Origin: Fructilactobacillus sanfranciscensis DSM 20451
GTDB taxonomy: Bacteria; Bacillota; Bacilli; Lactobacillales; Lactobacillaceae
Reading direction: 5' to 3'
Assembly (NCBI RefSeq): GCF_001436035.1
Contig: NZ_AYYM01000002.1
Span: 62,001 to 126,000, forward strand
Length of the DNA: 64,000 nt
This document shows, in pieces, positions 7,495 to 51,617 of this stretch; within the stretch, counting starts at the first letter, position 1; every line of letters starts with the position of its first letter. The notes beneath the pieces were generated by a model. That model worked only from the letters and a program-made list of their open reading frames with translations. It made no database searches and was not told where the DNA came from. The position numbers and the translations under genes were made by a program.

Positions 7495-7730
7495 CAAATA
7501 AAAAAAGCCTCTCCCACAATCAAGGGACGAAGCTTCGCGTTACCACCCAAATTCATACAATTAGTATGCACTCTTAGATGGATAACGAACATCAATCGGA
7601 CATTTTTTAATTAGCTTATGTCTACTTCTTCAAAAGCGAATTCAGTTACTATGATTTTTTTCAGCAATCAAAATCTCTCTGTTAAAACGTAACTTACTAA
7701 TTCTTTCTTCACAGTAGTTAATGAAATTAT
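7495..7730 (-). promoter_or_regulatory. T-box leader of pheST (Phe)
   Basis: The T-box core GGGTGGTAACGCG is at 7536-7548 on the minus strand and is followed by a terminator hairpin ending in a T-run at about 7500-7533. Upstream, a stem I region carries the AGAGAG element. The probable specifier triplet is UUC, lying in a GAA-UUC-G-CUUUU context near 7635. Uncharged tRNA-Phe would stabilise the antiterminator and allow pheS transcription. No other gene lies between the HxlR stop and pheS. Confidence 0.9.
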
Positions 7731-21224: not shown

Positions 21225-21440
21225 TATAAAAAAAGTCCCTAGTATTATTCAATACCAGGGACGTCGTTAGACGCGGTTCCACCCAAATTCGTTCAGTAAA
21301 CTGAACATCTCATTTGTAACCACATTATTAATTTTAATTTTAATCAAGGTGGTAAATTAACTAATCCAACGAATAACTTCCAGAAAATGTTATTCTCTCT
21401 GTGAATTCATAGCTAACTCATATCCTTGTTAATACTGTAC
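21225..21440 (-). promoter_or_regulatory. T-box leader of thrS (Thr)
   Basis: The T-box core GGGTGGAACCGCG lies at 21271-21283 (minus strand) and the terminator stem, with arm GTCCCTGGTATTG and a T7 tail, at 21229-21263. Stem I contains AGAGAG. The likely specifier is ACC (Thr) in UUU-ACC-A-CCUUG near 21350, where CCUUG closes stem I with CAAGG near 21425. Confidence 0.92.
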
Positions 21441-21471
21441 TAACACCAACAACAAATGTCAAGAGTGATGC

Positions 21472-47989: not shown

Positions 47990-48182
47990 AAAGACCCCTA
48001 CATTAAAAAATGTAAGAGACGAGATTAACCCGCGGTACCACTCTATTTGGATAATACCCACTTTAATTATTAATTTAAATTGCCTAAAAAGTACGAATTC
48101 ACTTAAGGACTTTATCTAGCTCACATCATCCTAGACTCGCTGTAAAATTCACTTAAATTACTATTCTTTCATCTTTGGCAAA
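47990..48182 (-). promoter_or_regulatory. T-box leader of argS (Arg)
   Basis: T-box core AGTGGTACCGCGGG at 48028-48041 (minus strand) followed by a terminator hairpin at 47992-48020 with T-run. Stem I has AGCGAG in place of AGAGAG. Likely specifier CGU (Arg) in GAAUU-CGU-A-CUUU near 48095. The leader begins within about 10 bases of the tRNA-Gly 3' end. Confidence 0.9.
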
Positions 48183-48189
48183 TCACAAA

Positions 48190-48260
48190 AGCGGGCGACG
48201 GGAATCGAACCCGCGACGTAAGCTTGGGAAGCTTAAATTTTACCACTAAACTACGCCCGC
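48190..48260 (-). tRNA. tRNA-Gly (anticodon CCC)
   Basis: A complete cloverleaf: acceptor GCGGGCG/CGCCCGC, D arm TAGTTTAGTGGTA, anticodon stem TAAGC/GCTTA with loop TTCCCAA, so positions 34-36 are CCC, and T arm GCGGGTTCGATTCCCGT. Discriminator T. CCA is not encoded. CCC reads GGG codons. Confidence 0.92.
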
Positions 48261-50915: not shown

Positions 50916-51161
50916 TTATTCAAAAAATACTCGACTGTGTGCAGTTTCGTTGTAAATATCAAAACGACCTTGTTTTAATTCTACTTTATACATGTCAGTT
51001 TTTTTAGTTTCATTTTTTGCAAAATTCATCAATTCGTGTTCCACACTACTGTTATCTTTGTGACCTTCAGAATTTAATAATTCTTCTTGGACACGGGGAT
51101 ACTTTAAAACTTCTTCTAATTTCTTTTCAAGTTTTGCACCATCAGTTGTAAATTCTTTCAT
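50916..51161 (-). CDS. Unknown small charged protein below the double T-box
   Basis: Not recognised. 81 residues, no membrane segment, no Cys, predominantly helical N-terminal half (GAKLEKKLEEVLKYPRVQEELL) and a beta-rich C-terminus (YKVELKQGRFDIYNETAHSRVFFE). Weak AGGA site. An extended -10 box (51195-51203) lies between the T-boxes and this gene, so it may not depend on them. Its own terminator follows, making it monocistronic. Confidence 0.7.
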   Translation of the reverse strand: MKEFTTDGAKLEKKLEEVLKYPRVQEELLNSEGHKDNSSVEHELMNFAKNETKKTDMYKVELKQGRFDIYNETAHSRVFFE

Positions 51162-51194: not shown

Positions 51195-51203
51195 ATTATA
51201 GCA
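51195..51203 (-). promoter_or_regulatory. Extended -10 promoter before the 81-residue gene
   Basis: TGCTATAAT on the minus strand, 34 bases before the start codon and downstream of the second T-box terminator. No clear -35 hexamer. Confidence 0.6.
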
Positions 51204-51208
51204 TTTAA

Positions 51209-51322
51209 AAATAAAACATCCTTAGCTAATCTAGCTAAGGACGCCTGCGCGCGGTACCACCTTTATTTTTAGTATTCTCACAAATACTAACTCACTAAGT
51301 CTAAAATTACTTTTTAGCTGAT
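51209..51322 (-). promoter_or_regulatory. Second T-box module lacking stem I
   Basis: Core AAGGTGGTACCGCG at 51249-51262, with terminator stem arm CATCCTTAGCTA at 51218-51243 and a T-rich tail. Upstream there is a stem-III-like hairpin (TTAGTATT/AATACTAA) but no AGAGAG or GGTG stem I elements before the first module's terminator. This 51162-51617 stretch has no other gene. Confidence 0.82.
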
Positions 51323-51590
51323 ACAAAAAAACGTCCTTGGTTAATTAACCAAGGACGTTTTACACGTGTTACCACCTATTTTCCCAATTACTTCTAATCG
51401 GCTCAAAAAGTATAATTTTTATACTTAAATGCGGTAATGGGCACGGCCAGCAAAAACTCAAATTCGCCTTTGCAACTTGTAGACTACTTTCATTAAAAAA
51501 TTGTTATCTCTTTTCACCACCAGAGACTCTCTGAAACAAAATTAAAAACTACTTTTCTACGCTTCGCTTTTTTTATTAATTTGTACTATA
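51323..51590 (-). promoter_or_regulatory. First T-box leader, full length, target unknown
   Basis: Stem I starts near 51560 with GTAGA pairing TCTAC (51480-51484) and contains AGAGAG and GGTGGTGA. Core AGGTGGTAACACG at 51365-51377; terminator arm AACGTCCTTGGTTAA at 51328-51360 with seven T. By alignment with the Phe, Thr and Arg leaders in this window (specifier, purine, stem I closing strand) the specifier would be GUA (Val); this reading is uncertain, AGU (Ser) is the alternative. Confidence 0.85.
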
Positions 51591-51617
51591 AATGATAAGT
51601 TAAATGGTGTCAATCGT

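Follow-up and report, generated by a model that had tools for sequence, protein, structure and literature searches.

The window, as we call the whole 64,000-nucleotide stretch of Fructilactobacillus sanfranciscensis DSM 20451 DNA analyzed here, carries on its minus strand a double T-box leader (51573-51207) with one stem I and two T-box/terminator modules. Gene order and leader comparison among sister species make it very probable that this is an orphaned valine T-box that formerly controlled brnQ, and the window copy would then be a clean example of a riboswitch outliving its gene. The leader belongs to a wider type in which a single tRNA sensor would serve two gates in the manner of a relay; taken jointly, an orphan leader of such a relay type is, in our judgment, likely to be the best explanation of this locus.

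Architecture of the Double Leader

A TTGACA-17-TATAGT promoter (51585-51613, minus strand), located by direct reading and a pattern search, sits upstream of the leader. Module 1 (51348-51573, minus strand) is a complete T-box: a local search with the Rfam model RF00230 covers the full model (positions 1-219) at 95.6 bits against a gathering score of 93 (E 1.2e-21), and the alignment contains stem I, stem II, the IIA/B pseudoknot, stem III, and the antiterminator. All of the following elements lie on the minus strand. The alignment places stem I, with its AGAGA and GGUGAA T-loop motifs (motif at 51532), at 51479-51567 and the IIA/B pseudoknot with the F-box CCCAUUA at 51430-51448. An extra hairpin, P:P1' (AAGUAUAA-AAA-UUAUACUU), occupies 51408-51426. 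T-box core 1, GGUGGUAACACG, is identified by both alignment and motif at 51365-51376, and terminator 1 (T1), a 15-bp stem with a U-run, spans 51321-51361, with the hairpin itself at 51361-51328. The leader thus scores above gathering and combines a specifier-bearing stem I and AGAGA/UGxRA T-loops with a UGGN bulge for the tRNA acceptor end and an alternative terminator. The usual amino-acid gene, a nonstructural mark of the class, does not follow it; structurally, the element is a T-box, but one without a cognate target at its locus.

Module 2 gives a separate match to the same model. Its core scores 34.4 bits when searched alone (E 1.8e-6) and 27.8 bits in a whole-genome search (E 1.4e-4, model positions 149-216); the matches are confined to model positions 88-219 or 149-216, and the second core is a genuine fragment of a T-box. 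With a gap of just 115 nt between the cores, module 2 is without a stem I. The module consists, on the minus strand, of a strand read directly as an imperfect complement of P (P2', AAUUUUAGACUU, 51297-51308), stem III (51269-51291), T-box core 2 (GGUGGUACCGCG, 51250-51261), and terminator 2 (T2), again a 15-bp stem with a U-run (51207-51246, hairpin itself 51246-51214). Direct reading finds the same UGGU bulge in both cores. A fully tandem T-box would have a second, specifier-bearing stem I, which is lacking here; what is found is the partially tandem arrangement, a single stem I with two antiterminator/terminator modules. An earlier, sequence-only reading of this DNA had described two T-box cores in series, each with a terminator, behind a single stem I, and had named an RF00230 covariance search as the check; the full match to module 1 and the separate fragment match to module 2 bear that description out.

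Across the 1.23-Mb window genome, the RF00230 search returns 24 T-box matches, two of which come from the orphan leader. Further T-boxes of the window lie at 7520-7720, 21254-21441, and 48012-48184 (minus strand), before pheS, thrS, and argS, respectively, and a tRNA gene (48190-48260) is directly upstream of the argS T-box leader.

The specifier is read as GUA (Val) at 51485-51487 (minus strand) from conservation and from comparison within the genome. On its 3' side, the specifier loop reads GAA-A-GUA-G-UCUAC; the ileS leader of the same genome reads GAA-G-AUC-A with equal spacing, and the valS leader has GUA at the equivalent position. The triplet is also kept in the brnQ2-type leaders of six Fructilactobacillus genomes (G001, G002, G004, G005, G007, and G008). 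Because GUA is shared with valS and with these leaders, the orphan leader is valine-specific as judged by comparison, and the valine specifier that had earlier been raised as a possibility holds. The double-core leader of the sole remaining brnQ of the window genome (contig C8, L053 6784-8680) has an AUC (Ile) specifier.

Probable Loss of brnQ behind the Leader

The window gene order is pyrB-pyrC-nuclease-APC permease-double-core GUA leader, followed by the 81-codon gene, a MarR gene, murE, and argS. In G008 (contig C1) the same order through the double-core GUA leader ends in brnQ, which encodes a branched-chain amino-acid transporter and has been retained. Five further species have a GUA leader and brnQ at the pyr-nuclease locus, arranged as pyrB-pyrC-nuclease-leader-brnQ-leader-brnQ in G002, G005, G001, and G007 and as pyrB-pyrC-nuclease-leader-brnQ in G004. 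The synteny comparison that the sequence-only reading had proposed for finding a lost gene therefore has a positive outcome, with brnQ after the syntenic leader in sister species, and it agrees with the earlier suggestion that a valine-linked target had been lost. Module 1 of the orphan is nearest to the brnQ2-type GUA leaders by sequence, with 68-72% identity to those of five species vs 64.5% to the AUC leader of the brnQ that this genome still has. Module 1 of the syntenic G008 leader and that of the orphan share only 61% identity, so the orthology of the two leaders is judged from position, specifier, and architecture.

Fructilactobacillus lindneri (G009) supplies the other half of the comparison. 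There, the 81-codon gene, MarR, murE, and argS form one block without a T-box, and the nuclease and permease genes lie at another place with other genes downstream. A search for a brnQ homologue in this genome found none at E 0.001; each of the nine other Fructilactobacillus genomes has at least one. The simplest reading would be a rearrangement in the lineage of the window species that joined the pyrBC-nuclease-permease-leader block to the 81-codon-MarR-murE-argS block and removed brnQ, and we infer such an event as the cause of the loss, with its junction just behind terminator 2. An assembly artefact was considered and rejected, as the sequence has no Ns and the window lies deep inside a 148,852-bp contig. 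Since the promoter, specifier, both T-boxes, and both terminators have been kept, most transcripts should still end within the leader; under valine starvation, some may read into the 81-codon gene.

That gene (50916-51161, minus strand; function unassigned) is not the original target. The alternative that the leader was recruited to place it under valine-starvation control could account for the intact state of all functional elements, including the 15-bp stems of both terminators, and the ORF is indeed the next gene downstream on the same strand. We nevertheless consider recruitment improbable. As had been noted earlier, the gene is preceded by an extended -10 box of its own, TGCTATAAT (51203-51195, minus strand), which lies 3' of both terminators. 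Found in just two Fructilactobacillus genomes, those of the window species and F. lindneri, it is preceded in the latter by TGGTATAAT, so that an extended -10 box is present in both species, and the F. lindneri counterpart (83% identity) has no T-box leader, which speaks against the proposal that its product is a new member of the starvation response. A Pfam search of the protein gave no match above the cutoff, and none to a metabolism or transport family, consistent with the earlier statement that this is not a synthetase, transporter, or biosynthetic gene. Loss of brnQ from behind a valine leader remains our preferred reading of the locus.

Partially Tandem Leaders in Lactobacillales

A pattern search for paired T-box cores spaced about 90-155 nt, which leaves no room for a second stem I, was run in the family, the order, and the class, and chance matches in coding sequence were discarded on inspection. 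Of the 74 Lactobacillales genera sampled in the order search, 17 have such close-spaced pairs. The sequence-only reading had held stem-I-less second modules to be nonstandard; this breadth, together with the established name "partially tandem" (PMC7583486), contradicts it. The order-search loci that were read are all partially tandem T-box leaders except L215, which is a tyrS leader lacking a genuine second module; the second motifs of L174 and L158 were rejected as chance. Most of the leaders precede an amino-acid (his-type) ABC transporter, permease and ATPase. In the genus g4, leader DNA is matched in all 36 genomes (36 species) and module 2 in 35; in the g4 leader L121 the specifier is CAC (His). 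One his-type g4 leader (L214, genome G428) is without module 2 and carries an unrelated hairpin-rich insert instead, a natural deletion of the second gate.

At the gathering score, Rfam picks up a single T-box, that of module 1, in L180, L221, L242, L247, and L248 and none in L239 and L109. This reporting of module 1 alone may explain why second modules have been overlooked. The six GUA brnQ2-type leaders (L046-L050 and L109, from the six genomes listed above) have a module 2 that still has its T-box core but is without a clear intrinsic terminator ahead of brnQ, whereas terminator 2 of the window copy is perfect; the terminator-poor modules may act on translation or be decaying, and their output may differ.

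Complementarity of P with Two Partner Strands

In partially tandem leaders, the extra hairpin P:P1' is placed between the IIA/B pseudoknot and stem III. Its 5' strand and loop (P) are located in the shared first part of the leader. Module 2 repeats just the 3' strand of the hairpin (P2') at its start and continues, as module 1 does after P1', with the short linker, stem III, and T-box. In nearly all g4 leaders, the core lies 39-40 nt from its strand, for P1' as for P2', the outlier of 54 (L182) being a mis-anchored P2'. In g4, P (GAAGUUAUUGUAA) and P2' (UUACAAUAACUUC) form 13 bp, and P2' pairs with both P and the loop of the P hairpin. Compensatory changes include A-U to C-G in L197 and U-A to A-U in L122, L204, L208, L211, and L212; a shifted P loop, UGUAAU, is matched by AUUACA in L203 and L209, and L205 is near-identical. 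Several covarying positions lie in the P:P1' loop, where P1' leaves them unpaired, and the L197 change disrupts P:P1' and preserves P:P2'.

Over 20 distinct g4 rows, standard pairs fill 93.1% of the cells of the helix vs 82.5 ± 1.4% after shuffling, with 19 double-change cells vs 5.0 ± 1.8 and a covariation score of 0.270 vs 0.093. Sliding the helix by 1-3 columns lowers pairing to 28-48%. Duplex energies, computed for the strands apart from whole-RNA context, were compared in 40 leaders (30 his-type and 10 Fructilactobacillus brnQ or orphan). The leaders' own P:P2' duplexes average -15.9 kcal/mol vs -8.1 ± 0.46 kcal/mol when partners are swapped, and with one leader for each of 15 genera, the values are -15.8 vs -8.0 ± 0.8 kcal/mol (p 0.0005, the floor of the test). 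P loop nucleotides are paired with P2' in 79% of cases vs 56 ± 5% in permutations (maximum 72%). For Fructilactobacillus alone, the swap test gives -15.5 vs -11.2 ± 0.9 kcal/mol, and a dinucleotide shuffle test, in which the P2' of the orphan was trimmed off, had a mixed outcome. By these sequence measures, the P:P2' complementarity is conserved, leader-specific, in the right geometry, and covarying in relatives. Strand sharing by P, clear in the relatives, is weak in the window copy, where P is AU-rich, P2' has one mismatch, and P:P2' is predicted at -6.2 kcal/mol vs -6.0 kcal/mol for P:P1'. The window copy belongs to the architecture by descent, yet it is poor evidence for a relay.

A Proposed Relay from One Sensor to Two Terminators

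These observations suggest how one tRNA could gate two terminators in series, a mechanism that we think probable for the type, though less so for the window copy itself. P, which follows the pseudoknot, would first pair with P1' and position antiterminator 1. Once polymerase had passed terminator 1, P2' would pair with P and its loop, invading the P hairpin via the loop, and the P:P2' pairing would loop out module 1. Stem III and T-box 2 of module 2 would then stand as far from the common stem I, stem II, and pseudoknot as their module 1 counterparts, and the same uncharged tRNA, bound through its anticodon, would offer its acceptor end to T-box 2 at the second terminator. Both the strand exchange and the re-use of one tRNA are inferred from the pairing patterns. 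If the relay is real, one sensor would provide two serial checks of aminoacylation, with less leakage and with charging tested twice.

In the main rival reading, module 2 came about by duplication as a backup terminator whose T-box has degenerated, and P:P2' is a leftover of that event. P2' resembles P1', and the two probably did arise by duplication; some of the stem complementarity would then be inherited, and it is the loop positions and the swap test alone that carry the argument further; in the window, moreover, P2' is no better than P1' as a partner of P. P2' is nevertheless the better partner in 38 of the 40 leaders, the exceptions being the C8 copy of the window genome and the G007 brnQ2 leader. 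The P loop nucleotides, which P1' cannot pair, complement P2' and covary with it (L197, the five U-A to A-U changes, and the three co-shifted loops), and T-box 2 is itself conserved, all of which makes the backup reading unlikely. Still less credible is the proposal that the modules act independently, module 2 binding a second tRNA by its NCCA end alone: the shared UGGU bulge would allow it, and two-tRNA cooperativity is a published idea for full double T-boxes (PMC9413887), but module 2, being without a specifier, would answer any uncharged tRNA with A73, and the conserved P:P2' helix would be left without a role.

Four close-spaced pairs from outside Lactobacillales (L245-L248) lack a P hairpin. 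They lie before aromatic-pathway-like genes and an NSS-type transporter, as judged from the starts of the translations. Their module 2 contains a strand able to pair with the stem III 5' strand and loop (p 0.06-0.15 each), for example AGUGGUGAAGAA with UUCUUCACAACU in L248; this re-use of the stem III 3' strand by module 2 is suggestive only, and we treat it as a lead. We lean, if slightly, toward the general statement that partially tandem T-boxes are relays with a handover from P:P1' to P:P2', the P loop serving as a toehold, and that the trick may have evolved independently outside Lactobacillales with the stem III 3' strand.

Comparison with Known T-Box Systems

PMC9413887 credits double T-boxes to its reference 14, probably Vitreschak et al. 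2008. Our search of the T-box literature, with that study outside its scope, found no P/P1'/P2' strand sharing. The P/P2' complementarity offers a concrete, mutable hypothesis for how one tRNA sensor might serve two terminators before many Lactobacillales transporters, in leaders of which standard Rfam annotation reports the first module alone.

With the transcriptional T-box of RF00230, the window leader shares stem I and its specifier, the T-loops, stem II, the pseudoknot with its F-box, stem III, the UGGN bulge, and the competing terminator; it differs in the extra stem III/T-box/terminator module without a stem I and in the P hairpin before stem III. Fully tandem T-boxes, such as those of Bacillota trpE and thrS (PMC12452182), likewise place two serial terminators in one operon, but there every unit comes with a stem I and a tRNA of its own, in contrast to the one stem I here. 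The T-box(His) leaders of hisYZ*X transporter operons (PMC9413887) are probably the class that we see in g4 and many other genera. Lactobacillales his T-boxes are described there as mostly single, with tandems only in five Enterococcus species; the stem-I-less second module scores under the Rfam threshold. A further counterpart is the partially tandem T-box, which has been named without a mechanism (PMC7583486) and whose action the review literature calls unknown. The leader studied here and its relatives belong to that type, with the same one stem I and two modules, and the window copy differs in having lost its gene.
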